DNA of 64,000 bases from the NCBI GenBank assembly GCA_021234155.1, contig JAJEKV010000033.1:6252635-6316634 (forward strand), read 5' to 3'. Below are positions 2,543 to 45,707 of this stretch, piece by piece; the first letter of the stretch is position 1; the number at the start of each line of letters is the position of its first letter. The stretch is from Isoetes taiwanensis. Its lineage: Eukaryota > Streptophyta > Lycopodiopsida > Isoetales > Isoetaceae. The notes beneath the pieces were generated by a model that did not search any database, was not told the origin of the DNA, and was given only the letters and a program-made list of their open reading frames with translations. The position numbers and the translations under genes were made by a program.

Positions 2543-2587
2543 GGCGATGAAGAAAGGAAAATCGAATCGAGACCAGCGGTGGCATGG

Positions 2588-25567: not shown

Positions 25568-26151
25568 TGTGACGCTCCCTGAACCTATATGATGTTCCCA
25601 TCATATAAATAAGAGAAATCCCCCTCCCATGGCGACTCCATCACCAGGGAAAGGCCCTCCGTCTGACTCGGGCCACTTGTGATGGGCAAGTATTCAAGTG
25701 AAGGACACGGAGGTGTCATTCATCCCATGCCTTCTATGGGAATCCTATATAGCGGAAGCGTACATACATGTTAGCACCTAGCAACAATACAAATAAATAA
25801 TATACCACCACGAAGGGTGGTCCATACATCATCAAGACAACATCACATAATAACAATACATATACAAAATGCATCAAGAATAAAGGTTCTACCCCAGGCT
25901 CAGACTCGGGGGATTTGACTGACATTCAGGACCTCCGAATAACAACAGACAGAATCATGACAATGGCGTTGGCTAGCATAGAACAAGGGTAGGCCACTCC
26001 ATCTGCCCCTGCTATGCACACTTTGCAGATAGGCTTAAACATGCTATGGCATGATTGTAGCCTTCAGAGACGTAATCCCATGACTACTCCAAGTTGCATT
26101 GCCCCAGTCTGATGAGGCAGGAATGAGACAAGTCCCTTCCCAGAGCACAAT
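25568..26151 (-). repeat. LTR of element B, left part
   Basis: This LTR begins TGTGACGCTCC. It is interrupted after 26151 by element A and resumes at 47214. The whole LTR is about 1.1 kb. It shares many phrases with the A LTR (for example CCACTCCATCTGCCCCT near 25996 and 26549), so A inserted into a relative of its own family. Confidence 0.85.
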
Positions 26152-27705
26152 TGTGACGTCCCCTACTCATATACGGTGCACTCACCGTATACAAACAGGA
26201 GTTCATCCCCCATACCAACTCCATACTGATACAGGGCCCTCCATGTATCACTGCAACCTTGATGAGTTCTAGTGGGAAGAATGAAGGGGTCATTTTACCC
26301 TGTCTCCCTCAGGGCCTACCTAGCTGCGGAAGCGTAAACATACATGCCAGTATACAATATCATCACATAGCCACCTCGAAGGGTGGCTCATCCATATCTG
26401 CATAAACAAAGATCAGCACATCACATATGGGGACCCTATCCAAGGCTCAGACTCCAGGGAATGACTGACGGCTTGGGTCTCCAGAGTTCATTGCAGACAG
26501 AATTCATGGCAATGGATTTGGCTGGCATGAGAACATGGCTTAGGGTAGTCCACTCCATCTGCCCCTCCTGTGCACACTTTGCAGATTAGGTTGAAGAGTG
26601 TTAGGACCTGACTGTAGCCCGCCGGATGCATAGCCAAGGGGGCTATTTCTGGGTTGCACCTCCCCAGTTCCGATGGGGCAGGTAGGGATCACTCCCTCCA
26701 GAGATCTACATGCTGACTCAAGGTGACTAGAGGGCCACTGCCCTTATCCGACTTGAACCCAATGGAGAGTGACGCATCACCCCACGGGTGTCGAGTCCAT
26801 GCCTTGCCCACACTCAGTGGCAAGCCATTAGACCTAGTCCACAGTGATCCCCGGTAGACTTTACACACCAGGGGGATCGTTTAAGAGTCAGAACACGAAC
26901 CTCTTTATAAGCCAGTCTGGCCCCTTCACCCACAACCCGGTGTGGCTCTTGTACACAGGCCGAATTTACAGTGTGCTAAAGAGGCTATCTATGAGCATCA
27001 ACTACCAGGGCTTTAAGGTCTCTACCCCCCTCATCATCCATATCACAGAAGAACTAAAGAACAAGATCTAATCTATATCACAGAGTTAGGTTCTTTAGTT
27101 AGGGCTTGATATCTAGGGATCTAGATGGCTGCTATGGGCAATTTAATAGGCTAAACCTACTTATTCAAGGGCTGGGAGGCGGTTTAGGCTATTAAATTGA
27201 CAAAATACCTGATCCTTGACTCGCTCCTCCTGCTCTGAACTCGACCATCCTGCTAAACTGCTAGAAGACGAAGCTAGAAGGGGAAACTGATGAGCCAAAT
27301 CGCTCAGACAGAGTTTGGGAGGCGGATTTGGCTCCTGGAGCAAGCAAAACAGAACCCTAGAACACTATGGACCAAAATAGCAAGTTAGGGTTTCCTTTAC
27401 CTAAATAGACAAGGGGTTAGGGCTAGGGTTTCCAATTACCCCTTTTAGCATGTGGGATAATTGGTGTGGCCCACTTGCCTTTATTAAGTGGCATAAAGTG
27501 TCCACATGGGAAAATGTGCACACTTGGATAAATGTGCACATTGGAAAATGTGCACATTAATAAATGCACACACCTTGCAGGTTGCCCCCTAGGGTGTTAC
27601 CTGCTTGGCTACGCGTCGGCGTACACGTCAGTCGGGGTGGCGTGTACGCGTGATGAGGCAGTACAGTATACGTCCTGGGACCGTATACTGTGCTGGAACA
27701 TCACA
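26152..27705 (-). repeat. 3' LTR of element A (complete, 1554 bp)
   Basis: TGTGACGTCCCC at the left end and GGAACATCACA at the right end form matching 8-bp inverted ends. The segments 26152-26265 and about 27031-27705 are found again in the other LTR (36396-36509 and 46539-47213). The middle of this LTR has no counterpart there. Plant telo-box-like AGGGTTT motifs lie near 27387-27433. Confidence 0.93.
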
Positions 27706-27718
27706 TTCTCCCCACCTT
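27706..27718 (-). promoter_or_regulatory. Polypurine tract of element A
   Basis: The minus strand reads AAGGTGGGGAGAA immediately before the 3' LTR, which is the expected position for the plus-strand DNA primer in reverse transcription. Element B has the related AAGGAGGGGAGAA at 47746-47758. Confidence 0.85.
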
Positions 27719-28168: not shown

Positions 28169-31100
28169 CTAAAGGTGTAGGCATGAGCGCCATATAGGCA
28201 TTATAGGGCGCTGTCTCCACGACCACGATGGAAGAAGCATCCTCTTCCTATGCCGGGAGATTAGCCATGCATTCATGTAGATAGATGGGGTGGTTCCCTT
28301 ATAACCAAAATTATTAATAATTAAAATTCGAAGCTGCTCTGCCTTCGTCTGCTGACATAGCTGACACTCTTTGATGTAACGAGCTACCTGCTTCTTCATT
28401 CCTGGCCAATAATAGCTGCTGCGCACTTTGAAATATGTCTTCATAAATCTTGCGTGGCCAGCTATTGGGCTGTTGTGGGTGTCGTGGAGAATCAACTTCC
28501 TCACACCTGATGATTCAGGCATGCACAACTTGTTCTTATGGTACAAGAGGTTACCTTCCTTCTTAAAATTTTTGAAGGTTTCCCTCTCCTTATCTGTTCT
28601 TGCTTCATTGCACAAGCTCGCCCATACTTCCTTGAAGTCTGCGTCTGTTGGCAAGGTTTCTTCGATCTTCTTTCCGAAGTCGCTGGAGAGCGTCGAAATT
28701 GCATTGCAATGCACTCTAGTTGTCAGAGGATGCCTTGAAAACGCATCCGCTACCACGTTGAGCTTCCCCGGTTTATAGACTATATCAAAGTCATACTCTT
28801 CGAGGAACTCCATCCACCTTCGCTGCCTCAGGTTGAGATGTGGTTGCGTGAATACATATTGGAGGCTCTGATGATCCGTGTCCAACTGGAACTTCCTTCC
28901 CAAGAGGTATCCAAATTCTTAGCGCCCTGACAACTGCAAGCAATTCTTGATCGTGCGTTGGGTAGCGCATTTCGGCGTCGTTCATCTTCCTGGAATCATA
29001 CGCTACTACTCGCTCTTCCTGCATGAGCACTGCACCTGTGGTTATCTTACTTGCGTCTGTCGCCACCAATTTGTCTTTCTCCGGGTCTGGCAGGGTCAAG
29101 ACGGGGGCGGTTGTCAAAGCTTCCTTCAACAATTCAAACCCTGCTTGGGCTTTCTTGTGCCAATGATGTGCCCAATCTTTCACCTTTTCCGCCCTCGTCA
29201 AGTCCGTTAGCGGGGCTGCTATCTTTGTGAAGTTCTTCACAAACTTCCTGTAGTACCCTGCTAGGCCAAGAAAACTTCTGACCTCATGGACATTCTTCGG
29301 TGCTGGCCACTAAATCACTGCTTCAATATTGGCAGGGTCCGTCGAGATTCCTTCTGCTGCGATCACATGACCCAGGTATTGCACCTTCTCCGTTGCGAAG
29401 TGGCACTTCGACAACTTGGCGTATAACTGGTGCCTCTTCAACTTCTCCAGCACTCTCCTTAGGTGTTGTACGTGCTCTTCAAAGGGATCTGCTATACACC
29501 AAAATGTCATCAAAGAATACTATCACAAAGGTGTCCAAGAACTCCCTGAAGATGTCGTTCATGAGCCTCATGAACGTTGCTGGGGCGTTCGATAAGCCGA
29601 AAGGCATTACCGTGAATTCATAGTGCCCATACCGCGTTCTGAAGGCGGTTTTATGGATGTCTTCTTCCTTTATCCTGATCTGATGATAGCCTGACCTTAA
29701 GTCAATTTTGGAGAAGACTTTTGCCCCTTGGAGCTGGTCCATCAAGTCATCCGATCTGGGGAGTGCATACTTATTTTTGATGGTGTGCTTATTCAACTGC
29801 CTATAATCTATGCACATCCTCAAGCTGCCATCCTTCTTCTTGACAAAAAGAATGGGTGCCCCAAATGGTGAGACGCTAGGTCTAATGACTAGGTCGAGCA
29901 ACTCCTGCAATTGCTTCTTTAGCTCCGTCAGCTCCTGCATCGTCATTCTGTATGGAGCCTTACTCGTCAGCTTCGTTCCTGGTTCGAGTGCTATCTCACA
30001 CTCGACTCCCCTGTAAGGAGGGAGGTGCTCGATCTCATCCAGGAAGAGATCGTGGAACTCCGTGATCAACTTAGCTACTTGCTTGGGCAACTTGCTGAGC
30101 ACCTTATCTTCTTTGCTTTCTTCTGATTCGGGCTCTTCGATCTCAAGCTTGAAGATATATGCTACCTGCTCACTCTTGATGCACTTGAGCAGTCGTTTAC
30201 TAGACATACACTGCATGATGGGAACAATTTCTTTACCTGTGATCTCAATGATCTTGCCGTTGGGCGCTGTGAGGGTCACCTTCCGCTTTCCACAATCAAT
30301 GATGGCCCCTGCTGGTCCAAGATACTCCATTCCTATGATCAAGTCATACTTGCCGATACCCATTACTTCTGCCCCCATCTGGATGTTAATTCCTGGCAAG
30401 TCGATGTCGAAGTTTATTCTCTTGCCTGCTGTTTGCCTTACTGCTCCACTTGCTAAGACTACGGGCCTCGGCTTGGACTTCAATGGTTTCAACTTCAACA
30501 TCTCAACCATTTTTGGGGATGCAAAATTGTGGCTACTTCCCGAGTCTATCAGGACTATGAAAGATTTGGCCTTGGCCTTCCCTACTGTGGAAATTACCTT
30601 ATACTGATTCTCTGCTTGTTCTATATCTATGGCAACAAAAATGTGACACTCACCCTGAATATAGTCGCGAGCTGCCTCGCCGTCGTCGTCAGACAGAGTG
30701 TCCCATCCACCCAACTCCACTAGCGCTGCGCTCATGACGAAGGGGCAGTTCGCTGTCCTGTGGCCTGGCTGGAAGCACCTGAAACAAAGCTGCTTCTCTA
30801 TGCACTCCTGTCTCTTCTCCTTGGGCATTGCTTGCAAGAAGGACCACACTGCTTTGGAGTAGTTTGACCCCTCCTGCTTGTCCTTGAAGGACACCTGCTT
30901 CTTCTCCTGCTGCTTCCCATGGTTGCCACTATATGGGGCTTTAGCTGGACCTGGGCTGGCTGCTCTAGGGCTATAACTCCCTGTTGCCTTGCCTTTATCC
31001 TGGTAATACTGCTGCCTCTGTCCGCTGTTCTGAGGCCCCGTTCCTTGCAAGCTTATTGCCTTGGACTCTGCTTCTGATACCGTCTTGGGGTTTATTGCCC

Positions 31101-31848
31101 TTACAAGCTTGCACATCTCCTCATTCAATCCTTCAATATAGCTCTCCACTGCGTGCTTTTCACTCAACTTCGGCACATAAAGCCTTAGTCTCATGAATTC
31201 CTCTGTATATTTCTGGACTGATTTGTTTCCTTGCTGCAACCTGTAGAACTGCTGCATCATGTTGGACTTGTGTTCCCTTGGGACGTAATGGCGCTTGAAA
31301 GCCTTAGCAAACTTTTTGAACCTGCAACCGTCCCTGCTTAAGCCATGTGCTTTGGCATAACCCTTCCACCAAATGCGTGCTGCTCCCTTAAGGTTGGCTG
31401 TTGCCACCCTGCCTTTGTCCTTGTTCTTCATACCATAGGCGTTACCATACTCACTCATCTCATCGAGCCAAGCCTCTGCTTCCATGCCTGACCTGTTCTC
31501 GCCTGAGAATTGCTCGAGCTTCCTGGCCTTCCATACGTTTCCCAATGCTGAGTCTACCTTCTTCTGATAGTCCGAGGTCCTCGTGTCCTTGTGGCTGCCG
31601 TCCCTTCGGTTCTGCACCTGCTCTTCCTCTTCTTCGGAGTCGGAGTCCGAATCCGAGCTTGAGTCGGAGGATTCCGTACTGGGGGACCTCCTTCTCTTGC
31701 TCTTCCTCTTGTCCTTCTTCGTCTTCTGAGGTGGTGCTTCGGGCAACTGGACACTGCCATCTGGAGCAACTCCTCCTTGGGCTGCCAAGAAAGCCTTTAT
31801 TTGCTCAAGATCCGTTCTCATCTGAGACATTTCTTCCTCAGGAGTCAT
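28169..31848 (-). pseudogene. Element A gag-pol polyprotein (Ty3/gypsy type)
   Basis: The first open block (31848-29479, 789 aa) contains, in order: an acidic/serine-rich N-terminus, the gag core with WW at [12 protein letters not shown], one CCHC knuckle ([14 protein letters not shown]), an aspartic protease ([11 protein letters not shown]) and reverse transcriptase up to the FFDDILVYS active site. A 1-nt insertion near 29485 then shifts the frame. The continuation (EEHVQHLRRVL...) is broken again by a stop in IEAVI*WPAP (about 29312) and a small indel near 28915. RNase H (KLVATDASKITTGAVL, then DTDHQSL) and the zinc-binding integrase head (HDTHNSPIAGH...CQLC) follow. The integrase core stops soon after a VVVE remnant. 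Order protease-RT-RNase H-integrase marks Ty3/gypsy. Not functional in this copy. Confidence 0.93.
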
Positions 31849-32129: not shown

Positions 32130-32741
32130 CTATTCTTGAAATCGCCGGTAGGATAGATTATCCTCAAGAAACTTCTTAAATTGGGCCGTTCCTACTGAGC
32201 GTCCCAAGTTCCTGAGGATGTTGGTTGATGACCCGCCCTGCAAGGCTATCACCAATTCCTCTACCCTGCGGTCGGAGGTGTAGGCCGCGGTTACTGCTAG
32301 TCTTCCCTGCCGTCGGTAGGGCACAGCGAAGTCGAAGACGTCAAGTGCCATCGTTCTCTTGACTAAGACGGCATAGTCGGTGTTTGAAGCCAGCCGAGCA
32401 TGCATGCCAAAGCCTGAGAGTGCGATGAGCATGAACACTCCTTCTTAGCCCCTGGGGCTGAATTTGCGGTGTATTACCGCTATTCTCCCGTCCATCAGCA
32501 GGGGGAGATAGTATCTCAGCGACCTGTCGTTGTGCGACATTGTTGATTCGTCGCCCCCTCGGCCACCAGCTCTATGTCGTCCGGCATATTCATCGACCTC
32601 CACCTCGGTGAACTCTCTGTAATCCCTGATTGTCGATGAAACTCGCCTGATGTCGATCCCGCCTCTTCTCTCTGTGGAGGCTGGTGTCGAAGAGCTCGGC
32701 AGTGGTCTTGCCACGGATCCCCATTCGTTATTGGATGGCAT
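32130..32741 (-). pseudogene. Candidate histone H4-like protein, one internal stop
   Basis: A 203-codon frame is interrupted by a single TAA at 32445-32447 (codon 99). The strongest feature is residues 128-148: KRTMALDVFDF followed by AVPYRRQGRL. Canonical H4 has [20 protein letters not shown] at its alpha-3/C-terminal end. Upstream, GRIAVI and GVFMLIALS can be placed on the L1 loop and alpha-2 of H4 with an insertion of about eight residues. The basic H4 tail is not recognisable and a C-terminal extension of about 55 residues follows. The case rests on this one block plus the presence of an H3-like protein in the same element. It could be an unrelated or heavily diverged protein. Confidence 0.42.
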
Positions 32742-32754
32742 AGAACTCCTCTTC

Positions 32755-33670
32755 AGACGGCAGGTCTCGAACTTCCATTATTTGCCTGATGTTGTTGTAG
32801 GCTTCGACTCCCTGTATAGGTGTCGGCTTCTCTTACCTGAATCGGGAAGTCTAAAGCTCTCCGGACGATGAAATCATCCAGATCTGGTTGTTGCCGCAGT
32901 TGGTGCAGCAACTCGTCGAGTCGGTACTCCCTTTCCCTGCATTCGGGGAGGTTTTGGATGTCATTGAGGAGCAGGTACTCCTCGCCGTTGATGATGATCG
33001 GGGCTAGGCTTGTGATACCTAGCCCAAGCGGGGGAGCGATCCTAAGGGTCTGCCGGTCCCGTTCAAAATTTGCTATCTCCTATTCTGCTAGCTGTCGCTC
33101 TTCTTCTGGGTCGAGCTCGACGTAGTCCTCGTCATCCGATTCCTCGTCTTCGGCTCTCTCTTCTTGCTCCTGTTGGTACTGCAAAAGGAGCTGATCTGCT
33201 GCTAAGGAGGCTATGGGGTCCACATCCATGGGAGGGATAGAGGTTTCCCCCATGGGGTTTTCGGCACGGTGGGAAAGAAAGATTGCCAAGGCGGCGGTGT
33301 AGGAGAAGTACTTGGTCCTATCGACTGTCAGGACCATGTAGTCTGGCAACCTCTGGGCCTTGTTGGTCAGGTACTTCGCAATGTTTGGAACATCACCCAA
33401 GGCTGCTTGAAGGGATGGCCTGGGAACAAAATAGCCTGTACAAGGGGGGAGCTGCACTAGGGACGGTCCTACCCTAGCTTGGAAGTCGGACAAGACTTGT
33501 CTATATGCTGGGGTTGCGTGCAGAGTGGCTTGGACATCTATGTCTTTTCGGAAAACTTGAAAAATGGCATTGACATCGGTCTCAGCTGCATGGGCACTGG
33601 CGCTGTACCATCGCCTAAAGTCAGCTGTTGCCATGGATCTAGAGAGAATGGGACTAACAAACGGATGCAA
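32755..33670 (-). pseudogene. Second accessory cistron, possible H2B-like fold
   Basis: The frame opens at 33670, or more likely at the second ATG at 33634 (MATADFRRW), about 114 nt below a TATAAATA box. Residues 33-107 (from 33670) can be aligned with H2B: AIFQVFRKDI on KIYIFKVLKQ, VLSDFQARV on IMNSFINDIF, and RPSLQAALGDVPNIAKYLT on [20 protein letters not shown]. An acidic stretch (EERAEDEESDDEDYVELDPEEE) closes the first block before a stop at 33080-33082. The frame continues open beyond the stop to about 32755 with a helical DELLHQLRQQPDLDDFIVRR segment. A perfect donor-like CAG-GTAAGAG lies near 32841. The H2B match is weak and could be chance; what is solid is an extra cistron with its own promoter-like module. 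Confidence 0.4.
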
Positions 33671-33755: not shown

Positions 33756-33945
33756 GACTAGGGGAAAACCCTAATTTTTGGGTGACCTAGAAAACTATTG
33801 GGGTTGGGAAAATCTGACCTATTTTGAGGTAAATGGGGATTGGAAGACTAATTTGGGGGTTTGAGCATGACTGGGACTATTTAATGAACCTATTGCAACA
33901 AATTGGAGGTCAATTGGATATGGCATGGTGGAGAAAATGCTAGGA

Positions 33946-34015
33946 GGTCTCACACGATGCGCCTGGGGCTCGACCTAGATTTTAGGTTTGGCTTCTGGCG
34001 CGACGTGTGAGACAT
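33946..34015. promoter_or_regulatory. Palindrome module copy 4 (cistron 2, proximal)
   Basis: Roughly 70-bp near-palindrome: AGGTCTCACACGATGCGCC on one arm and GGCGCGACGTGTGAGACAT on the other, with an inner CCTA...TAGG stem. It could be a DNA element bound by a dimeric factor or an RNA hairpin. It lies about 190 bp upstream of the TATA box. Confidence 0.85.
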
Positions 34016-34147
34016 TTGCCCTATCTTGGTCAAAACTTATCCAATCTGGGTGATCTAAGTTCAAATCATGCTAGACTCTTCGAGTTAGGCAAGATTGACC
34101 CCTTACTTGGTCGATTTGGAGGTGTTTTGGTCTAGATTAGATATGAA

Positions 34148-34217
34148 GGTCTCACACATTGCGCCCAGGGCTAGACCTGAACTTTAGGTTTGTGCTCTGG
34201 CGCGACGTGTGAGACAT
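34148..34217. promoter_or_regulatory. Palindrome module copy 3 (cistron 2, distal)
   Basis: Same family as the copy at 33946-34015, with arms GGTCTCACACATTGCGCC and GGCGCGACGTGTGAGACAT. The pair is spaced about 200 bp apart, as is the pair upstream of cistron 1. It starts about 140 nt after the stop codon of the H3-like ORF. Confidence 0.85.
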
Positions 34218-34357
34218 CCCTCACTACTTGCTCTAAATGTTACCAATTTGACTGAAATAAAAGCCATTACTTGCTAATTCAATTTAGTTAAGTACATTTA
34301 TACACATAGTCTACTCAAAAACACTTGTATTAAACAAAATTTTATCATTTACAAAAT

Positions 34358-35224
34358 TTACTGGCGTTCTCCCTTAATGTAGCTGGCCAGCTGCATGTCT
34401 TTCCTCATTAATGTTACTCTCTTGCCATGTACAGTGCAGGCTGTGGAATCTTCAAAGTGCTGCACCAGCTTCTGCTCGGTCGCTTCCTGTAACGCCAGCA
34501 GCATCTCGTCTGTCACCCTCATTTCGGTGTTGTACTCCTGTACGACTTCTCTGACTAATCGGGCGAACGGTGCACGGGGAATTAGGAAGCCGAAACTGCG
34601 CTGAAAATGCCGAATCTCTCGTAGTGCTCGTCTCTCGCTTTCCTTTCTGCTGGCTCTCCTCTTCGCTGGCTTCTTGGGAGGCTTGGGCTTCTCTGGCGGC
34701 GGCCTTAAAGTCTGCTTCTTCGATGGGCATCCACCTTCGACAATTCTGACCCTGTTCTCCTGGTAGTAGGAGTTGTAAGCCTCCCACTTCTTCATGTATA
34801 CGTTGTGCTCCTTCAGCTTCCTCTCGTAGACCTTGATAGGGTCTATCACATACGATTCCCGGGCAGGTCGCGGCGCTTTTTTCCTATCCCAAGTCGGGTA
34901 TTTCGGGGCTGCCTGCTCCTGCTCCGGCTGCTCCTGATCATGTGCTCCCTGTTCGTCACCTGGGGGCTTAGAAGAACTCCCACCTTCAACATTGGTGTTG
35001 AAGTCTTCATCTTCAGAGTCGCTTGAGGGCGGGGGCTGGTCGGCTGGCCGTTTCGTGATGACGACCTTAGGGTTGGGGGTCTTCTTCATTCTCCTCTGGG
35101 CTCCTCCACCTTCTTGCCCTTGAGCTTCTTCTTTTCCTCCGCCTCCTTCTCTTCCTGCTTCCTCTTCTTCTCGGCTCTTTTCTTTTCTCGGCGCCATTCT
35201 TTGGCCTCGTGCATTTGGATCCAC
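34358..35224 (-). CDS. Retrotransposon-encoded histone H3 (core domain ORF)
   Basis: The C-terminal 89 residues (200-288 from 35224; DNA 34627-34361) are a full histone H3 fold ending where H3 ends. ALREIR, then FQRSF (alpha-N); PFARLVREV (alpha-1); NTEMR (loop 1); LALQEATEQKLV and FEDS (alpha-2); C-x2-H-x-KRVTL, then KDMQLA (alpha-3); final GERQ. By eye, about half of the residues match canonical plant H3. Loop 1 has the canonical H3 length, not the longer loop of CENH3. In front is a lysine/proline-rich stretch (PKPPKKPAKRRASRKESERR), taking the place of the H3 tail near the core, and an acidic/disordered linker. The frame is open from 35224 but the likely entry is the ATG at 35089, which overlaps the stop of the upstream ORF as ATGA, or a -1 frameshift from that ORF. 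H3 pairs with H4 in nucleosomes; what this protein packages or targets is unknown. Confidence 0.93.
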   Translation of the reverse strand: MDPNARGQRMAPRKEKSREEEEAGREGGGGKEEAQGQEGGGAQRRMKKTPNPKVVITKRPADQPPPSSDSEDEDFNTNVEGGSSSKPPGDEQGAHDQEQPEQEQAAPKYPTWDRKKAPRPARESYVIDPIKVYERKLKEHNVYMKKWEAYNSYYQENRVRIVEGGCPSKKQTLRPPPEKPKPPKKPAKRRASRKESERRALREIRHFQRSFGFLIPRAPFARLVREVVQEYNTEMRVTDEMLLALQEATEQKLVQHFEDSTACTVHGKRVTLMRKDMQLASYIKGERQ

Positions 35225-35703
35225 GCCTCGAGCTGTTCTTCCTCGGTCGGCTCGGGGGTGGGCTCCTTCTTCTCTTCTTGCTCCTTTGCCTCCTCTTCTC
35301 GAATCCAGGCCTCGAGTTCTTCCTCCATGGTCGGCTCGAGAGTCGGCTGCCTCTGCTCTTCGCGAACCTTGGTTCTCCGCTCTCGCTCTGCTCCCTCCTC
35401 TTCCTGTATTTCCCGCTCTATCTGCTTGTATACTTCTTGGGTTTCTTCATTCATTGAACCCGGAGATCCAATGTCTTCTTCTTCAAGCACTTCAGTTGAT
35501 CCCTGGGATCCGTGCTCCTCTTGTGATCCCTGCTGGGATCCCTCCTCGTTACGCTCTTCGGACGCTGTTTCCTCGCTTGATGAAGGCTGGTCTCCCCTGG
35601 CGATAAGTCGCTCCCGAAGCATCTGCTGTATCAGGCTCGGATCTTGGGTGCTGGTCGATTCACCTAGTCGGAAAACTCGAGCGGTCTGTTTGGTTCTAGC
35701 CAT
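35086..35703 (-). CDS. H3-tail-mimic ORF (starts M-ARTKQTAR)
   Basis: The 205-residue frame begins MARTKQTARVFRLGES. Residues 2-9 equal positions 1-8 of histone H3, including Arg2, Thr3, Lys4 and Arg8, the sites read by PHD, WD40 and chromo-type proteins and written by H3K4 methylases. The rest is highly charged: Ser/Glu-rich to about residue 100, an imperfect repeat of a PTMEEELEAWI / PTEEEQLEAWI unit (about 124-140 and 152-168) and a Lys/Glu-rich end. The start lies about 104 nt below a TATAAATA box. The stop overlaps an ATG of the H3-core ORF (ATGA), and the two frames overlap for 139 nt in a -1 relation, so tail and core could be joined in one product or made as two proteins. The position directly in front of an H3 core makes chance resemblance very unlikely. 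Confidence 0.9.
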   Translation of the reverse strand: MARTKQTARVFRLGESTSTQDPSLIQQMLRERLIARGDQPSSSEETASEERNEEGSQQGSQEEHGSQGSTEVLEEEDIGSPGSMNEETQEVYKQIEREIQEEEGAERERRTKVREEQRQPTLEPTMEEELEAWIREEEAKEQEEKKEPTPEPTEEEQLEAWIQMHEAKEWRREKKRAEKKRKQEEKEAEEKKKLKGKKVEEPRGE

Positions 35704-35814: not shown

Positions 35815-35913
35815 GATGGCCAATTTTAGGTCAAATTTCAAGTTGCTCTATTTAATGTGCCAGGGCACCTATTGACTTAAAACGTATACTTATTTCAGAG
35901 TTTTCTAAGTACT

Positions 35914-35981
35914 GGTCTCACAATGCGCTGGAGGCCAGAACTAATAATTAGATCAAGCCTCTGGCGCGACGTGTGAGACAT
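35914..35981. promoter_or_regulatory. Palindrome module copy 2 (cistron 1, proximal)
   Basis: The arms are TGGTCTCACAATGCGCTGGAG and, on the far side, CTCTGGCGCGACGTGTGAGACA. This copy is more diverged in the centre than the other three. It lies about 100 bp upstream of the TATA box. Confidence 0.8.
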
Positions 35982-36124
35982 TGTACATTTTTGACTAAAT
36001 TAAGTGATTTCTAGGCATATTTCTAGGGGTGTAATATACCGATCTAGCTAGATCCTACCTTAAAACTTGATCTAACATGTTACCTGGTTAAAATTCATCA
36101 AGTATTAAGGTGATTATGGCCTAA

Positions 36125-36194
36125 TGTCTCGCACGTTGCGCCCAGGGCTCGACCTAAACTTTAGGTTTTGCTTCTGGCGCAACGTGTGAGACAT
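36125..36194. promoter_or_regulatory. Palindrome module copy 1 (cistron 1, distal)
   Basis: This is the best-kept copy. The 19-bp arms ATGTCTCGCACGTTGCGCC and GGCGCAACGTGTGAGACAT match with one difference, and an inner ACCTAAA-CT-TTTAGGT palindrome forms the tip. As RNA it would fold into a strong hairpin; as DNA it contains GGCGC cores reminiscent of E2F-type sites. Confidence 0.88.
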
Positions 36195-36382
36195 TCTTAC
36201 CTTTAGAGAGAATTGGCTCAACTTTTTAGTCTTTTTATGTTCCAATTCGCCTACTGTTACTAGCTTAGCATATACTACAAAAATGAGAAAAAAAATTCCC
36301 ACTTTTCGAGGTTTAAGGATCCTATCAAGTTAGTACTACTGGGAACATGGCCAGTGCTTTGCTCTTGGTCTCCAAGAACATT

Positions 36383-36394
36383 GCTCTGATACCA
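36383..36394 (-). promoter_or_regulatory. Primer-binding site of element A (tRNA-iMet)
   Basis: The minus strand reads TGGTATCAGAGC, the complement of the initiator-methionine tRNA 3' end, one nucleotide inside the LTR border at 36396. It fixes the orientation of element A and the position of its 5' LTR. Confidence 0.93.
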
Positions 36395-36395
36395 C

Positions 36396-36509
36396 TGTGA
36401 CGTCCCCTACTCATATACGGTGCACTCACCGTATACAAACAGGAGTTCATCCCCCATACCAGCTCCATACTGATACAGGGCCCTCCATGTATCACTGCAA
36501 CCTTGATGA
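36396..36509 (-). repeat. 5' LTR of element A, inner piece
   Basis: Corresponds to 26152-26265 of the complete LTR. It then breaks off into E1 sequence. The matching outer piece is at 46539-47213. The LTR segment equal to about 26266-27030 is missing between them. Confidence 0.9.
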
Positions 36510-36615
36510 TTGTATGATTGTCACTTTCTGTTGTATGAAATGGTTTGAGGCGAAAGCCATTAACTAGTGTAGGTAATGGAGTTCCATCTAATTCAGCCAG
36601 CTTGAAAACGCTGGG

Positions 36616-37971
36616 TTATACCACTTGAACAATTTGATAAGGGCCAAGCCAGCGAAACTTTAACTTGCCCAGAAAATTTTTGTAACGAGAGTCATAAAGA
36701 AGAATCAAATCGCCTTCTTTGAATGTTTTTATCTTAAGTCTTTTGTCATGCAATGATTTCTGCAACCGTTGTCCATGAAGAACACGAATATAAGCATCAC
36801 GCCTAAGTTCATCCAATTGTTCCAATTGATAAACCCTTTCTTTGAGTGCAGCAGGCGGATTATGGGTTGTAGCTAGTTGAAAACGGAGAGTTGGAAGAAT
36901 GTATTCAAAGGGCATGAGAGCTTCTTGACCATAAACCAATTTGAAAGGAGTGTGACCAGTAGCTATTTTGAAACAAGTATTGTAAGCCCAAAGAACAGTA
37001 GGAAGCTTGTTTTGCCAGTCAGTGCGAGAAGCGTCACAAATTTTCTTGAGAATTGTGACCAGAGTTTTGTTGGTGCTTTCAGCCAAACCGTTCCCTTGAG
37101 GATAGTAAGGTGTGCTCTTGTGATGATGGATCAGTAGATAATCCGTTAGCTCCTTTATGGTATGATTGATAAAATGGACACCTCGATCACTGACCAGCTC
37201 CGTGGGACAGCCAAAACACGTGATGATTTGCTGATAGATGACCTTGGCCGTGCTTGCTGCAGTGTTGTCTGGAAGTGCGCAAGCTTCCGCCCATTTGGTA
37301 GCGTAGTCAGTGAGAACCAGAATGTAGCGGGCACGAGTGTGCCGCGCAGGAGGATCAATGGGTCCCACAAAATCCATCCCCCATTTGCTGAAAGGAAGTG
37401 GCGTGGCGACCGGCGTCAATGGAAGAGCGTCACGGGCCGTGGATCTTCCTACACGCTGACAAACATCACACGTGCGGGCGTGGGCGTGAGCGTCTTTGAA
37501 GAGCGTGGGCCAAAAATAACCTGCAAGAAGGATTTTTGCGTGCGTGGTGTCACCATGAAAATGACCACCACCGAGCCCTTCATGGGCTTCTCGGACAATA
37601 TCACGGGACCTCATGAGGGAGAACACGGCGTCGAAGGGCGGTATCCTTGCCCTTTTGTAAAGATGGCCTGCAACCATGGTGTAGTCCACGGACCTCGCGG
37701 AGAAATTGGTGTCGGCGGGATTGGCGCTTAGGCTGGAGAGAGGCGTGGCGTCCTCACGGTGAGAGATCTTGTTGAAAGTTGTGGAACCAATGTGGCCGTT
37801 AAGCGTGCGACCGAAAAAGAGTTGAGCGTCGGGGAAAGGCGTCCGAGACTCCCGTGGAGAGATCATCTGTGTGGATGCGTGAAAGATAATCCGGGACAAC
37901 ATGAGATTTGCCTGCCTTGTGAACAATTTCAAAAGGTGCAAATTCTTGCAGAAGGAGAACCCAACGAGCAA
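36616..37971 (-). CDS. E1 integrase
   Basis: Contains a HHCC zinc head (EAHEGLGGGHFH...CDVCQ) and a DDE core with WGMDFVGPI, VSDRGVHF and GLAESTNK supplying Asp, Asp and Glu. A C-terminal domain with GDLILLYDSRYKNFLGKLKF and a RWLGPYQIV (GPY/F-type) motif follows, then a stop at 36616. A few more family-like residues (PSVFKLAELDG) follow the stop. Most of the domain is intact, but the polyprotein upstream is broken. Confidence 0.9.
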   Translation of the reverse strand: MLVGFSFCKNLHLLKLFTRQANLMLSRIIFHASTQMISPRESRTPFPDAQLFFGRTLNGHIGSTTFNKISHREDATPLSSLSANPADTNFSARSVDYTMVAGHLYKRARIPPFDAVFSLMRSRDIVREAHEGLGGGHFHGDTTHAKILLAGYFWPTLFKDAHAHARTCDVCQRVGRSTARDALPLTPVATPLPFSKWGMDFVGPIDPPARHTRARYILVLTDYATKWAEACALPDNTAASTAKVIYQQIITCFGCPTELVSDRGVHFINHTIKELTDYLLIHHHKSTPYYPQGNGLAESTNKTLVTILKKICDASRTDWQNKLPTVLWAYNTCFKIATGHTPFKLVYGQEALMPFEYILPTLRFQLATTHNPPAALKERVYQLEQLDELRRDAYIRVLHGQRLQKSLHDKRLKIKTFKEGDLILLYDSRYKNFLGKLKFRWLGPYQIVQVV

Positions 37972-38438
37972 TGCGGCCCGTGGGCGTGGATTTGTTGATC
38001 AAATAAAGGAGTGCTTGGTGGTCAACAAAGAATTTGATCTGACTGCTTAAAAGATAGTGATGGAAGCGTTGGACACAGAAAATTAAACCCAAGGCTTCAC
38101 GCTCTGTGGCAGAGTAGTTGCGCTCAGCAGGATTGAGTTTTCTGCTGGCATATCGGTTTGGTTTGTCAGTGTGCGCATCATATTCTTGAGAAAGTTGTCT
38201 TGAGTTGATCAGATTCTTTGATTGAGATCTGATTGTAGCCAGAAAAACCATCCATGAAGGAGTACATCTCATGTCCAGCGACCTCTTCCAGAACCTGGTC
38301 TGTGAAGGGAAGTGGAAAATGATCATCCGCGGCCTGATTTAGTTTCCGGTAGTCCACGCAAACACGGATCTTTCCATTGTGTTTGAGTGCAATGACAATG
38401 GGGCTCACCCATTCAGAATGTTTGACCTCATAGATCAA
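37799..38438 (-). pseudogene. E1 reverse transcriptase (partial) and RNase H
   Basis: 38438-38178 holds the fingers/palm start (SEWVSPIVIALKHNGKIRVC, then VDYRKLNQ; MDGFSGYNQI). About 38215 the frame jumps directly to RNase H-like SQEYDAHTDKPNRYASRKLN and FFVDHQALLYL. The part with the YxDD active site and the thumb is missing, so a deletion of several hundred bases removed catalytic function. Confidence 0.85.
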
Positions 38439-38513
38439 ACCTGCAGCAAGGAGTTTGTCAATTTCTGCCTTGACGCGATCACGGTAATTGGGGTTGAGCC
38501 GGTACTGTCGTTG

Positions 38514-40784
38514 CTATACTGGACGTGCATCGGATTTGGTAGGAATGGTGAGTTCCCCCAAGGTTTTGTTGACTCCCCGAAGGTCTCTGTAGCTCCAGGC
38601 AAAAATGTGTTTGAACTTTTTGAAGAGCGTGACGGCCCTGTTACGATAGGGTGTCGGAAGATTGGCAGCAATGCGGACAGGCTGATTGTTGCCCACGTCC
38701 ACAATCTCGACTTCAGGAGTTTGAATATGTGGGATGACTTCCGTGTCTTTGACAATATGAGCAGGAGGTTGAAGCATGACAGGATGAGTGGCGCTCTGCG
38801 TGGTAAAAAAGAGAGGTTGCTGATTGTCATCAAGCAAAGGTTGCTTCATGACAGCGTGTACATCAATAGGATCTGGAGGAAGTTCTGCATCTGAAAAGTG
38901 ATCAACACGTTGGATGCGATTGCAAGGAGCCAGGTAGGGGTCAAGCAAGGCAGCCACAGCTTGGTCCTGATCAAGCGTCATTTCTCCCCAAGGATCAGCA
39001 TATTCGGGGTAGGATGACAGAGGCCGACTCGCAGGTGGAGCCTGAACTTGATAGATATTCTGGGCATCCTCAGAATCAGTGTCGGAGAGAGAGGGTTCAG
39101 CATTATCAACCGAAATGATCTTACCGGTTTCCAAGTCCATAGTGGCATTGAGGTGACCATCTGTGATGACTAACTGATCCGTGGCCCAATAATGGATACT
39201 CTTGGCCTGGCGGAGGAAAGGTCTGCCAACCAACATTTCATAATCACCTGGATCTTCTCCATCCTTCCAAACACCAAATTCTAAGGGGAATCGGAGATCA
39301 CCAATGTTGATGTGAAGAAGAGGGGTGACGCCTTGAGGTCGCGTGATATGGCCATTAGCCAATTTGATGTCATATGGGGCACGATAGAGTTGTTTGATGC
39401 CCATTTGTTTGCGGAGTTTGTCCGTAATGAGATTGACAGCGCTACCTCCGTCAATTTGAACATGATTGACTTGTTGATTGCCCACCGTGGCATGTACCGT
39501 GGGTGTAGAGGTAGCGACAGCCCCAACCAAAACGGTCGGGAGTGGTAACTGGTCCTTGAGAGCAGGACATAGTTTCAAAATTGTTGCCAGACTTAAGGGA
39601 ATTTTGATTTTTGCCAGCTCCTCTTGGAGTTCCAGAGGCACATGAGAAAAAGGATCTGCTGGATCCACGGGTGCTGGAGTGCGTGGTAATGAAGCAACAA
39701 CTTCTTTGAGAAGGTCAACCTCGGCAGCAATATTCGGATATGTCTGAGAGCGTGGAGGTTGAGATGTGGAAGGTGCATCTTGTCTTTGTTGAGCTCTGGT
39801 GGTGGCATGAACATTAGCCAACGTGCGGCCTTCAGCAGCTTGCATGAGGTTCAAAATGCTTTGGCGTACTTTAGGCATGACATGAGGCATGAGTTTTTCC
39901 AAGTTAGGTGCAAAGTGAACCTTTTTGTCCTCTTCATGAGGGATTGTGTCCACTGCAAAGGCAGGTTGCGTGCCATTAGGAATAATGGTTAAGGGACGTG
40001 ACGCCCTGGTCTGGCATGAAACCAAACCAACCCAATTGGACGGCTGGACTAGAGGATTAAGAGCCTGAAAAATTTCTTCCTGGGCTTGTTGATCCAGCTG
40101 AGGTTGATTGGCAGGAGCTGGTTGATAGCGTGATTGCTGAGGCGCGCGAGGTGGCTTCCGAAGAACGGGACGCGGGCCTTGTTTGCCATTGGCAATCCAA
40201 AGTTGGTAAGCCGTGAGGCGGACCGAGGTGGTTTGATTGGTGCCAGGAAGTTGCACCTGAACTTGTGGAAGTTGAGGACATACCGTGGTTGTATGACCCC
40301 ATTCGTGACAGTGATAACACTGAGCTTTAGAAGGATCAAAAGGGGGGCGTGTGTTAGGTCCCCGTTGTTGCTCCTGTTGTTGATAGAGTTGATTGGGTTG
40401 AGCCTGCAGTGGTTGCGGCTGATATGGCGATTGTTGCTGAGGTGTTGTTTGCACTTGATAAACCAGTTTGTTGCGGAATGGTGTAGGATGAGTGCGCGTG
40501 CACTCTTCCGTGGCATGATTGCACATGTTGCATCTTTTACAATGAGGCGGGCCACTGGTGGAGTTGCACTCATTTGCCAAGTGGCCTTGATATTTGCAGA
40601 TATGGCACCAGATCTGACTGTGCTGCTGAGTGGCGTGTTGAGGTTGGACAGCAGTCTGTGGAACCATGACTGGTGGAATGAAAGGGAGCTCCTGGAGAGC
40701 CACGCCACGGGAGGAAACATTGACTGAGTGATTGACAAGGTCGATAGCCTGCTCCAAAGTCTTCGGGCGCAGGTATTCAGTCAT
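38514..40784 (-). pseudogene. E1 gag C-terminus, protease and linker
   Basis: This 756-codon frame has three zinc knuckles (CHICKYQGHLANEC, CKRCNMCNHATEEC, CYHCHEWGHTTTVC), a Gln/Pro-rich linker and a retropepsin with VQIDGGSAVNLI, and leads into the start of the reverse transcriptase (FAWSYRDLRGV). Three knuckles are more than the usual one or two of Ty3 gag. A TGA at about 40785 separates it from the gag core, which continues in the same frame upstream. Confidence 0.88.
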
Positions 40785-40787
40785 GAG

Positions 40788-41800
40788 TCAGATAGCTGGA
40801 GGAAGTCCTTGGAGAAACCAGACCAAGATCTGGCTCTGGGTCGGGTACTCCTTGAGTTTGCTGAGCAGGATGTGAAGTCGATCTGCAAAATCCCTGGCGG
40901 ACTCCGTGGGCTCTTGTTGAAGGTCATTGAGTTGCTTGAGATGAAGTTGATCATCATCCGTGGTTCCATAGTGAAAAGCAGTTTTCATTTCTGACCAATC
41001 TTGTTTCCAGTGGCTTTTTTGGACATAAGCCATTGATGAGGAGAGCCACGCAGTGTGGTGGAAAAGATATGGAATTTCAGTTGAGGTTGGGCATGACCAT
41101 TTAGGACAGCCAGAGCCTCAAATTCTTCCATGTGGGCCTGAGCACTTTGGTCTAATGGTTTGCCTTTCGTGTTGCCAAAGGTGGGATAAGTCAACTTAAG
41201 GGTCTGAAAGGTAGAGGTGAAAGTGCTTGGCTGGACAGGAACTGGATAGGGATTATATTGAGGTGGAGTTGGAGGTGGCATGGAGCCTGAAAGACCCGGA
41301 TGAAGGGGTTGCTGAGGTGGAGGTACTGGAGGTGCCTGATCATTGGTTTTGAGGTCTGTAAGGTTGTAAACAGGAAGAGCGGTAGGAAATGTAGGGAAGG
41401 GAAATTCCTGGGGAGGAGCAAAAGAGACTTGTGGATATCCCTGTCCACCCGTAGGAGATGATGGTTGTGAAGGCAGAGGCGTATGGCCAGAAGAATGATG
41501 GATATAGGCATGTTCGGGGGTCTGAAAGTAAGGTTTAGAAGGTTGAGCCTGATAGGGCTCCTGATAGTGATGAGGTGACTGAGGCTGTGAGCAATGTTTG
41601 CACGCTTGAGGCGGAGAACTGGGACGAGACATGACACGAGGGGTGGGTGGCGCCGACTGAGCCCTAGACCGAATGTGGCCTCCCTCAATGTCATAAGCAG
41701 ATCCATACATGTCGCGAACATCTTCCCTTCTATTATGGCGCTCCAAGCGAGACGTCGTCTGGGAAAGGAGTTCTTCTGGCGTGAAGTTTCGGACAGACAT
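40788..41800 (-). pseudogene. E1 gag N-terminus and core
   Basis: Starts MSVRNFTPEELLSQ at 41800, 28 nt below the primer site. It has a long Pro/Gln/Ser region followed by a retrotransposon gag core (LTYPTFGNTKGKPLDQ...HIFSTTLRG, ESARDFADRLHILL). A frameshift occurs at an A6 run near 41017, where the E0 copy has CAACAAAA instead. The frame then continues to a stop at about 40785. Confidence 0.85.
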
Positions 41801-41828
41801 GGCGACAGAAGAAAGGAAAATCGAATCA

Positions 41829-41847
41829 GACCCGGCAGCGGCGACAG
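41829..41847 (-). promoter_or_regulatory. Primer-binding site of E1 (tRNA-Asp type)
   Basis: The minus strand reads TGTCGCCGCTGCCGGGTCTG next to the LTR end. It resembles the TGGCGCCGTTGCCGGGGA site used by many plant Ty3 elements (tRNA-Asp). Two or three mismatches are present. Confidence 0.7.
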
Positions 41848-42431
41848 TGTTTGGGGTCTGGGTTCGGGAACTCCTGCAAGACAGCCCTCTGTGAAGACCC
41901 TTGGATCTAACAGGAGAATCCGGGGACTATGTCACGCGGGATTTGCAAGGAAAACAAGGGAAAGGGAAAAGAAAACAAAGAACAATGAGACAACAATGAT
42001 AAGCTTCCTTGATATCAATGATGATGATACATGAGCTCTCGCAACCGAGAGAAAACTGAAGTGAGACAAGACTCAAAACTCATCTAAAACTCATGTGCTA
42101 GCTCTACTCATATATATAGTACAATGGCCTTTGGCCCAATATAGACACTCTGACTGATTTCGGTGCCGACTCCTGGAAGGAGGCCTGATTTGCAGGAATG
42201 CTGGCGGTGCCTCTTGAAAAGCCTGAAATCACGCTGACGCGGGCCGTGACGGGCCGTTACTTGTCTGAGCGCCGCCTCTTGTTGACGCCAGGCGTGGTCT
42301 TTGTCTGCGTAGTCTGCTTGGTCTTCTGCTGAGCCTTTGACGACTGACCCGCGCCTGATTGTGGATCCTTGCTCTTGACTTGGTCCGTCGTATGCATGAA
42401 TAGTCCTGTACCAGGAGGCACAGGACTAACA
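41848..42431 (-). repeat. 5' LTR of E1
   Basis: 584 bp, with TGTT...AACA ends, nearly identical to 2588-3170. A TATATATAGTAC sequence near 42111 could be its TATA region. Confidence 0.9.
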
Positions 42432-42436
42432 AATAT

Positions 42437-42470
42437 CTTCTTCTTCTTCTTCTTCTTCTTCTTCTTCCTC
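42437..42470. repeat. (TTC)n microsatellite
   Basis: About eleven TTC units. On the minus strand they encode a run of glutamates at the end of the element C open frame next to the E1 junction. Confidence 0.9.
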
Positions 42471-42471
42471 A

Positions 42472-43485
42472 CATTCTTTCTCCACTTCAACTTGGTTAAC
42501 ATCTATAACACCCATGAAATTTAGAATTGTATCCTCCAAATCTACAACCGCGTCATCATAAACTCCGTACACACCTTCTTCTTTCAAGGTCATATCCTCT
42601 TGTGGCTCACTAGAGGATGCTACATTCGCATATGCACTATCTGCATTATAATCAGGATCATCGTCATCACTACTTTCGCTATCATCGTCACTGGAATCAG
42701 ATTCTACTTCAAATTGTGCAACAGCTTTTGGCATTTCACTCACTGTAATTTCCACCCTATTATTACCATCACCAATAACTAAAATCCCTCTATGCCAATC
42801 GTGTATTGCTCTGGCCTGCAACAACCATGGTCGGCCTAATAATAATGGATAAGAAGGTGGTAGCTTTCAGAACTACATAATCCACATAGAACACAAGATT
42901 TGCAATCATGGTTTTTACACCGGTAATCATGCCTAAAAGTTTTACTCGTCTCTGATCAGCCATCCTTACTCTAAAATAAACAGGAGAAGGTGCAGTTAGG
43001 TCTAATCTTCGAAGAGTTTCTTCTGGCATAATGTTAACCCCAGATCCGTTGTCAATCACAGCAGAATCTAGCCCTAAATCCCCTATAACAACATGCACAG
43101 ATGGCGATTTCATATCAAACAAAGAGGGCCATATGGAATTAACAGATACGTCCTTTTGCAATCGTAGAGCCGCAGCCACTTCCTTTCTACATGGAGGGGA
43201 TAAAGACAACAGATGTGCAAAAGTGATAGTGGGTCTAATATTGCCTAAATCAGCCAATATATCATAAGTAGGCATGTCTTTAGAAAGTTTCAGAATTTTC
43301 TTGTATTTCCTTCTACTCCTTGGTTTCCTAAGTTGCTCTCCAGACTCTTTCTCATTTGGCAAAGAGGAGTTTCCTGCATCCATAATGCCTTTAAGTTCTT
43401 TAAATGTGGGTGTGTCATGCAAAGTCTCTTGGGGTGTGTTTTGGGTGTCACCCAATCCTAAGAATTCGGGCTTTTCAAATCTCAC
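42472..43485 (-). pseudogene. Element C protease region
   Basis: 43485-42790 carries a retropepsin with the active site AVIDNGSGVNIMPEETL, preceded by a Lys/Arg-rich linker. A small frame change near 42870 leads to ARAIHDWHRGILVIGDGNNR (42824-42472), which continues the protease-RT spacer and ends in an Asp/Glu-rich stretch. The NGSGVN form of the active site sets it apart from E1 (DGGSAVN) and A (DSGSSHN), so three Ty3 lineages are stacked here. Confidence 0.8.
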
Positions 43486-43500
43486 ACGTCTACTCCTTCT

Positions 43501-44136
43501 CTAATTATTAGGATTTAATTGCATCTGATAGATAGGGCATGAGTTTTCCTCTATTAGTTCACATAAATTAGAGTCAAGGATTTTTTCTTTCCCCTTAGAT
43601 CCGTTTTCTATAGATCGTGGTGGCAATACATGTGGACACCTATCTTGTGAGTGTAACCCCTGGGTATTGCAAATGCCACACACAGGTTCAAAACCTACTT
43701 CTTTTCGTGGATTGGGACAATTAGGAGCTATGTGTCCCTCTTCCTGGCATCTGAAACATCTAATAGGTTGTTGGGACCTTGATTGTCTTGGTGCTGGCCT
43801 TGAGAACCTATTGGGTGTATTATTTCTCCCTTGAATAGATGGATTAGCAGCATAAACAGGAACTAATGGCAGCATTTGTCCACCGTCTACCATAGCGGGT
43901 TGGATATAATAGGTAGGGATGCTAGACGGTTTTGAGATAGCAGGTCTCACATTTGTCCTCGCTGGATCAACTCTCCTATCTTGCTGGAAATAACAGTCAT
44001 TATCATTATGGTTACTCCTATGACAATAATTGCACCATGTCCTAGGCTTGGTCAAAGGACACTCATTCGGAAAATGACCATAACCTTGACATTGAACACA
44101 CCATACATTTGTACGGGGCTTGGGCTCTAAATTACG
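43501..44136 (-). pseudogene. Element C gag, zinc-knuckle half
   Basis: Four zinc-knuckle-like motifs in a row: CVQCQGYGHFPNEC, CNYCHRSNHNDNDC, CFRCQEEGHIAPNC and CGICNTQGLHSQDRC. The N-terminal side is cut by the MITE at 44137-44457. The stop at 43501 separates it from the protease frame. Confidence 0.85.
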
Positions 44137-44457
44137 GGGTAAAAGCATGTTAGGGTGTCCCTTAAAAAGTATTATTTAGTGACCAAAAAAGTACCTAAAA
44201 AGGTACCCAGGACTGGGTACTGGGTACCCGTGTAATATCTCAATAAAAGTTACATTTTAGAACTTTTATATATATTTTGGTCTCCGATAGCATTATCTTT
44301 ATCTTAACTTTGAATATTAATGCGTCCTTGACTTTTATTTTGGACCTTTGTACTAGTTTTAATGAAAATAAAAATGAGAAAGTACCCAGTTCTGAAGTAC
44401 CTAGTGTATGTACTTTTGCAGGTTCCAAAAGTGGTACACCCTAACATGCTTTTACCC
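44137..44457. mobile_element. MITE copy 1 (4-bp target duplication TACG)
   Basis: A 321-bp element with about 25-bp terminal inverted repeats that start GGGTAAAAGCATGTTAGGGT on both ends. The duplication TACG lies at 44133-44136 and 44458-44461. It is non-coding and AT-rich and contains stem-like phrases (GGTACCC, GTACTTT). A second copy is at 49559-49833. It interrupts gag of element C. Confidence 0.9.
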
Positions 44458-45271
44458 TACGAGGTGTTCTAATTGCAGATAATTGCTTACCCAACTCCTT
44501 TTTCAAGACCTCATCAATAGTTTGCCTAATAGTTGTCTGAAGATCGGATATAGGAGGCTGATATGGAGCTATTTGTGGCTGCACCAACCCTCTAGAAGTT
44601 GCTCCGTAAGGCATTCTACTATAATCAACTAATTGAGGGGATGCATAATGGACATGTGTGTCTGGAATATTAGGTGTAGCAGCACTTTGCCCCATTGGCG
44701 CATAGAAACTAGGGATGCTTGTCATATTAGCATTCATTTGTGGGTTTCTCATATAATTCATCCCTGCCAGTTCTAGTTGGGATGCAATTTTAATTGCTGC
44801 TTCTAAGGACGCAGGGGACTGCATTTTTACGTAAAAGCTCATGTGGCTAGGAAGTCCTTTACTAAACCATCTAATTTGATATTCGACATCTGGTGATTTA
44901 GGTTTCTTACACAAGAGTCTACGAAATCTATTAACATAACTTTGAATAGACTCGTTTGGCAACATGGTGAAGTCTTGTAACTCGTCATCCAGTCTATCTA
45001 TAAACCCTGCAGGTCTAAAAGTTTCTAGAAATGCTTCTTCCAATTCCTTCCAAGTAGCATAAGTGGTATTCTTCAATGAGTGGCGATACCACTCTGAAGC
45101 TCCACCCATCAACGTGGCTGGGAACCATCTTAATCGCTTTGTGTTTGTATTCTCTTGATTTGCCTCACTCACCGTAAGAAAATGTCTAACATGTGCATCA
45201 GGGTCTTCTCCTACCTGACCACTAAAAGTACCATAGCGCATGCGCGCTGATTTAACAGATGATGTGCTCAT
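44458..45271 (-). pseudogene. Element C gag, N-terminal half
   Basis: Begins MSTSSVKSARMRYGTFSGQV and contains a retrotransposon gag core (FPATLMGGASEWYRHSL, NESIQSYVNRFRRLLC, WFSKGLPSHM). It ends in the MITE after IRTPRR. Without the MITE it would read into the zinc-knuckle half. Confidence 0.88.
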
Positions 45272-45680
45272 ATTTTGTGTATTTTGTGAAATGTGATTTT
45301 CAGAATGGCTAGTCCTGTGGAATAGTGTTTTTAACTGAAGATCTTCCTCCTCTTATTGTTGCTGGCGTCTATTATATCTCTCTTGCCTTAATTGAACTTC
45401 CTTCTCTCTTTGCTCTGTAGTGAATGATGGATACATACATCCCAAGTTTTATGGGTGGCACCCATCTATAACAGTGGCACTCTCGCTCTTCTGTTTAGCA
45501 TGGCACTTCTATCCCCATTTACTATTCCCAGTGAAGTTTTCCCCTCTTTCAATCTTTTAACATAATTTATTCAGAAGCAAGTATGCAAGCAATTATTCAG
45601 ACAAGCAAATAATAATTATTAATCATTCCCGGTTCTTTCCAGATGCAAAGTTTATGCATGAGATAATCTCGCTCACTCTA

Positions 45681-45707
45681 AGCCTGTTCGGGCGAAGCCA
45701 CCAAACA
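45681..45707 (-). promoter_or_regulatory. Primer-binding region of element C
   Basis: Next to the LTR end the minus strand reads TGTTTGGTGGCTTCGCCCG, followed by AACAGG. CGCCCGAACAGG equals the core of tRNA-Lys-type primer sites. The exact tRNA is uncertain. Confidence 0.55.

Follow-up and report, generated by a model that had tools for sequence, protein, structure and literature searches.

Copies of a Ty3/gypsy retrotransposon family in the genome of Isoetes taiwanensis encode a histone of the H3 type, which is present in two diverged lineages (A and B) and whose tail and core are under purifying selection. The copy from which we started lies in a stretch of 64,000 nucleotides, here called the window, and altogether 239 H3 matches were scored in this one genome over both lineages, which is a lower bound. 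We propose, with a probability of roughly one in two, that the captured histone enters host nucleosomes and there favours the element, most likely by anti-silencing.

A histone H3 frame within a Ty3/gypsy element

The H3-bearing element of the window (element A) is a decayed Ty3/gypsy chromovirus copy. The earlier note had placed the H3 ORF inside one element defined by two LTRs, a primer-binding site (PBS), a polypurine tract and an ACAAT duplication, and all of these could be read or aligned in the window. The features are as follows.

26147-26151 (left copy) and 47214-47218 (right copy): target-site duplication ACAAT, read directly
26152-27705, minus strand: 3' LTR of element A, 1554 bp, by self-BLAST
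27706-27718, minus strand: polypurine tract AAGGTGGGGAGAA (minus strand), adjoining the 3' LTR, read directly
28169-29240, minus strand: decayed RNase H and integrase fragments, by Pfam and frame reading
29479-31848, minus strand: gag-protease-RT ORF, 789 aa (Pfam Retrotrans_gag 6.5e-18, RVP_2 1.2e-9, RVT_1 1e-28)
32130-33634, minus strand: ORF2, an additional ORF that separates the H3 ORF from gag, in pieces here
33945-34218: pair of imperfect hairpin repeats of about 70 nt, downstream of the H3 ORF
34358-35224, minus strand: C-terminal piece of the H3 ORF, 288 aa, ending in KGERQ (Pfam Histone; model and Foldseek)
34361-34654, minus strand: H3 histone-fold core, alphaN to alpha3
35086-35703, minus strand: N-terminal part of the H3 ORF, 205 aa, out of frame with the C-terminal piece
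35677-35703, minus strand: MARTKQTAR codons, which after the initiator Met are identical to residues 1-8 of H3
35913-36195: second hairpin pair, on the upstream side of the H3 ORF
36383-36394, minus strand: primer-binding site TGGTATCAGAGC, read directly
36396-36509, minus strand: part of the 5' LTR adjoining the PBS, 99.1% to the 3' LTR
36510-46538: nested insertion or insertions with other gypsy-type gag/pol ORFs, outside element A, from translations read
46539-47213, minus strand: outer part of the 5' LTR, 97.9% to the 3' LTR

Reading from the PBS, which we take to be complementary to initiator tRNA-Met, the order is H3 ORF, ORF2, gag-protease-RT (gag-PR-RT) and decayed RNase H-integrase (RH-INT). 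The interval 28172-28903 matched Pfam Integrase_H2C2 (1.5e-19) and RT_RNaseH (8.9e-7), while in the frames read neither the integrase core nor the chromodomain is intact in the window copy. The three window pieces of ORF2 had no Pfam match, and the middle of the 5' LTR was not found between its two pieces (36396-36509 and 46539-47213). A stretch of 3.2 kb occurs twice in the window (1-3170 and 39267-42431, 94.7% identity); its second copy, which contains gypsy-type ORFs, lies within the nested insertion in the 5' LTR of element A.

The 288-aa piece (34361-35224) matches Pfam Histone with an E-value of 2.5e-26 (92.8 bits, cutoff 26.4) and H3 sequences in the PDB with 2.8e-25. Helices alphaN to alpha3 align, loop 1 has the canonical length, and the core is 52% identical to a typed canonical plant H3, in agreement with the earlier estimate by eye that about half of the core residues match. 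An AlphaFold2 model of the piece, built on an alignment of 50 database proteins, has predicted helices at residues 192-209, 217-230, 239-266 and 274-284, with a pLDDT of 68-92 in the block from residue 201 (mean of the whole piece 67), and the 50 matches listed by Foldseek with this model are chains from structures of nucleosomes or histone octamers. The ORF does end in an H3 fold, as first supposed, and a chance or low-complexity match is ruled out by the E-values, the fold and the genome-wide family. The H3 domain at 34358-35703 is thus confirmed, with the correction that a frameshift splits the ORF of the window copy into 35086-35703 and 34358-35224. The upstream piece begins with MARTKQTAR, an addition to the earlier note, which had included this start in its interval without remarking on it. 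An H3 tail of canonical length (ARTKQTARKSTGGK) was found in neither lineage: lineage A keeps residues 1-8 or 1-9, followed by a long new region, and lineage B has a different N-terminal domain.

The H3 ORF is an ORF of its own, separate from the gag ORF, and this bears on a packaging role, in which the histone would coat element nucleic acid (cDNA or RNA) inside virus-like particles or the pre-integration complex, a use presumed also for the histones of giant viruses. A separate first ORF argues against a structural part of Gag, and no other histone domain was found in the element ORFs scanned (a general Pfam scan). Consistent with packaging are the H3 fold kept in the core, the strong constraint in lineage B and the observation that several viruses encode single H3s, three of the six described having extended tails (in the available part of PMC9145170). 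However, the conserved K4 tail of lineage A suggests chromatin readers instead, and we regard packaging as unlikely.

The hairpins beside the H3 ORF have the half-site ATGTCTCACACGTTGCGCC and are present in four copies of about 70 nt, paired on both sides of the ORF; a 22-base part of the hairpin (up to 3 mismatches) occurs these four times and nowhere else in the window. At least one half-site (up to 4 mismatches) was found on each side of the ORF in 29 of 30 lineage-A loci (L009-L038). In the lineage-B locus L066 there are two hairpins with a different sequence (142-228 and 250-336), and both lie upstream.

Two lineages of copies in the genome

The genome searched comprises 1,658,258,908 bases in 1110 contigs, and all match counts are lower bounds. 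A DNA search gave at least 58 matches (40 scored of 2527 candidates) and a protein search with the window piece at least 136 (135 scored of 13,661 candidates; 57-100% identity), in which one copy accounts for two rows because of its frameshift. By hand tally, 72 of these 136 lineage-A matches are stop-free over the matched part. Long open frames fetched at twenty places included 13 lineage-A ORFs open from start codon to stop, one of them (L046) with an altered C-terminus. A second sample was chosen by gag, so as to avoid selection by open frame: in 27 of the 40 best gag matches the H3 ORF lies at roughly the offset expected, these being 18 with an H3 match from the genome searches (judged by eye, one about 0.9 kb off) and nine of the 22 others fetched. 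H3 was not found at this fixed offset in the remaining 13; four of these stretches (L084, L086, L092 and L104) correspond to other regions of the window, and for C1033 and C1100 an H3 match lies 15-20 kb off on the same strand.

A CENH3 query (P0027) gave at least 150 matches (150 scored of 7808 candidates), and the eight that were read (L059-L066) belong to a second lineage, B. A search with the L066 protein scored 103 of 11,362 candidates (79-100% identity); by hand tally, 68 of these have no stop over the matched part. The L066 element (C919 copy) has LTRs that are 94.35% identical, an ACTTA duplication and the PBS TGGTATCAGAGCC. Host histone genes mistaken for element copies are ruled out where the context was read, in the window and around the C919 copy with its two LTRs. 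It had been left to be seen whether other copies carry the ORF; they do (136 scored matches in lineage A and 103 in lineage B), which rules out a one-off captured gene. Domain, LTR frame and genome-wide copies together strongly support the original claim of a Ty3/gypsy element that encodes an H3. The roles that the earlier note suggested for the protein (to package the element's DNA or RNA, to mark its chromatin, or to be a dominant H3 variant in the host) are hypothetical.

The H3-bearing family belongs to the Ty3/gypsy chromoviruses. Pfam on the window and L068 ORFs gives the order gag-PR-RT-RH-INT, L067 has a chromodomain at the C-terminus of the integrase (Pfam Chromo, 1.6e-10), and the chromodomain of lineage B is readable after an in-frame stop. 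This domain speaks for a role in integration targeting, in which nucleosomes containing element H3 would be landing pads for the integrase chromodomain. Plant type II chromodomains, which are without a known partner according to the available part of PMC6317226, would suit such a role; yet by the criteria given there the element chromodomain itself looks type II by eye, the first and last cage aromatics being missing in an alignment to HP1, and thus may not read methyl-lysine. Lineage B, moreover, is without the H3 tail that lineage A keeps, and we consider integration targeting improbable.

Measured against the typed canonical H3, which is not the host's own, the lineage-A cores are 49-58% identical, that of L066 86%, those of the other eleven B1 proteins 81-86% and the two B2 cores (L063, L064) 77-78%. 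The N-terminal domain of L066 is conserved, differs from the N-terminal region of lineage A and has no relative in the protein database at E 0.001. Our B1 set of 12 omits the B2 rows L063 and L064 as well as L073, which failed a motif filter, and includes L075, which has an internal deletion, and L081, a stretch without a start codon. An ARKS motif, resembling the K9/K27 context of H3, is present in 10 of the 12 B1 proteins read (L070-L081 group and L066); in L066 it lies at about residue 248, some 60 residues before the core. The K36 position of lineage B is R, with the adjoining K37 kept, in an alignment by eye. Between lineages A and B, identity is 50% for gag-PR (476 aa), 74-76% for RT pieces and 78-80% for integrase pieces. 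ORF2 gave no match between the lineages among the 30 blastp rows listed, but is homologous by profile comparison with its counterpart in L065 and L066 (hhalign probability 89, E 2.2e-6, 128 columns).

In a tree of 26 chosen core rows (P0053 and P0150 having been dropped earlier because the core was unrecognisable, and P0138 having been a bad row in the first tree), lineage B forms a clade (support 97) adjoining canonical H3, and the long branch of lineage A stands next to angiosperm CENH3. Constraining A and B to group together costs 13.2 lnL, which is not rejected by the AU (p = 0.0535), KH (0.083) or SH (0.088) tests, but the grouping is excluded by bp-RELL (0.027) and c-ELW (0.028). Lineage A and CENH3 have LIPRAPF- and VTLMRKD-type residues in common, and differ in that lineage A has the canonical loop-1 length of H3 and an H3-type tail. 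A simple CENH3 capture for all copies is unsupported, as lineage B groups with canonical H3. The two lineages may descend from separate captures of H3 and CENH3. The shared position of the ORF, the homologous ORF2 and the similar LTR ends favour one capture, while the high similarity of pol against the large divergence of the core favours a second capture or a replacement.

Constraint on the tail and the core

The tail was surveyed in 50 lineage-A loci, the window's included, and was counted as recognisable if at least 6 of the 9 residues were kept, which holds for 44 of the 50, with a perfect MARTKQTAR in 28. The K4-equivalent residue is K in 44 of 44 recognisable tails, a figure biased upward by the choice of loci by tail similarity; at the K9 position the same tails have V (30), K (12), L (1) or R (1).

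Pooled dN/dS ratios (NG86, given as absolute values) were obtained from two small main sets picked for open frames, 12 open lineage-A ORFs (L046 omitted), for which dS is near saturation, and 12 lineage-B1 ORFs. In lineage A the ratio is 0.013 for tail residues 1-9, which rests on nine codons with dS near saturation, 0.271 for residues 10-280, 0.171 for the pre-core and 0.067 for the core; the pairwise means are 0.041 (29 of 66 pairs), 0.248, 0.130 and 0.063 (45 of 66 pairs), respectively. In lineage B1 it is 0.087 for the N-terminal domain, 0.303 for the linker, 0.152 from ARKS to the core and 0.021 for the core. Nine gag-chosen copies, likewise a small set and with stops included, gave 0.082 for the core and 0.255 for the pre-core. 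IQ-TREE codon fits (lnL -1377.9 free, -1513.5 for a fit meant to have omega = 1) were not relied on. The H3 tail and core are under purifying selection, and the neutral decay of the fold that the earlier note had named as the outcome that would count against its reading was not seen in either lineage or in the gag-chosen copies. Constraint on both fold and tail argues that the protein is used as a histone.

That a functionless fragment of a host H3 has simply been carried along would fit with the capture of host genes by LTR elements (in the available part of PMC13317346) and with the many broken copies, the window's among them. But many copies are stop-free, dN/dS is far below 1 at large dS and two diverged lineages exist; passive capture is largely refuted and we give it hardly any weight. 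A different way of using the protein would be as a modulator of host chromatin or a decoy acting in trans, for example one that occupies readers and writers of the K4 tail of H3 and does not wrap element DNA. The ARTKQTAR tail is indeed under the strongest constraint in lineage A, where the core is divergent, but lineage B is without that tail and yet has the tighter constraint on the core, which a pure decoy would not need. We rate this possibility as a poor one.

Proposed role and comparison with known systems

The sequence of events that we propose begins with an ancestral chromovirus, which would have acquired a host gene of the histone H3 type. Placed after the PBS and before gag, the captured gene would have become the first ORF and would have been retained as a gene of the element, its product being a long H3 variant with a replaced N-terminal extension and a nearly complete H3 core. 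This product would be nuclear, pair with host H4 and be loaded into host nucleosomes, and the altered chromatin would benefit the element and its expression, the histone most likely serving to counter silencing. In keeping with this, the tail of lineage A is kept at its K4 end, a new domain is found in lineage B, and much of the tail portion that bears repressive marks is missing or replaced. H4 pairing, nucleosome entry and anti-silencing are steps that we infer, and pairing is less certain for lineage A, whose cores are only 49-58% identical to H3. The loss of repressive sites is incomplete, since 12 of the 44 lineage-A tails keep K9 and ARKS is found in 10 of 12 B1 proteins. It is also conceivable that the element H3 would act on all chromatin and not specifically on the element copies. 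A more specific version, in which the element H3 replaces host H3 on the element copies, makes them resistant to silencing and perhaps guides the integrase, and so amounts to a selfish histone variant, is a tentative one that we think rather doubtful.

Core histones are among the most conserved of cellular proteins, and transposons are silenced via marks on histone tails. If our proposal is true, a transposable element family with its own H3 (core dN/dS down to 0.02) would have turned the substrate of silencing itself into a weapon in this conflict. The element H3 would then offer a testable natural experiment in the function of the H3 tail and core and a possible partner for orphan type II chromodomains, and it gives reason to seek histone genes in other retroelements.

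The earlier note knew of no described retrotransposon with an H3 gene. We likewise found no retroelement-encoded histone in the open-access literature (titles and abstract starts, most subscription papers and preprints lying outside it) or in the protein databases searched, and the word 'histone' was not found in the main texts of the Isoetes genome papers (for I. taiwanensis, PMC8566536). A protein-database search with the window piece gave 276 proteins; the 120 listed are histone-domain proteins, many of them H3 or centromeric H3, and the best match listed covers 30% of the query at about 58% identity. A search with a 15-row alignment gave at least 31 proteins among 8000 candidates scored, and in the 11 of these that were read no element-like sequence was seen by eye outside the histone parts. 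In four unnamed proteins on contigs of 2-22 kb (P0128, P0130, P0137, P0135) the start of an H3 tail is followed by a long insert of unrelated sequence and then by an H3 core, which in P0128 and P0130 is 88-89% canonical; they could be another mobile or viral H3. Scans of viral contigs found no relative of P0130. A short viral metagenome contig from IMG/VR (L082, 1054-1338) encodes an H3-like core that is 37% identical to lineage B.

The family resembles known chromoviruses in its LTRs, its tRNA-Met-type PBS, the order gag-PR-RT-RH-INT and the C-terminal chromodomain, and a tRNA-Met PBS is also reported for Selaginella chromoviruses in the available part of PMC3350952. It differs from lycophyte chromoviruses as described, with gag-pol and a chromodomain, in that a histone ORF goes unmentioned in the available portions of those descriptions. 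The single histones of viruses (H4 in bracoviruses; H3 in xenomaviruses, phycodnaviruses and others) are similar in that one core histone is carried by a mobile genome, often with an extended or altered N-terminal tail and with host partners presumed (in the available part of PMC9145170). In their fold such histones are near the host's own, at about 87% for bracovirus H4 in the same source; lineage B is 77-86% identical to the typed H3. The carriers there are DNA viruses and here an LTR retrotransposon, for which 239 matches were scored in one genome, and lineage A is far more diverged. The VANC proteins of VANDAL transposons would provide a likeness in function, as element-encoded proteins that counter silencing. 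Unlike the element H3, VANC is no histone, and its VANDAL carriers are DNA transposons. The targets of VANC often form tandem repeats (in the available part of PMC5735166), and paired hairpin repeats flank the H3 ORF here, which by loose analogy with those targets may be cis sites.
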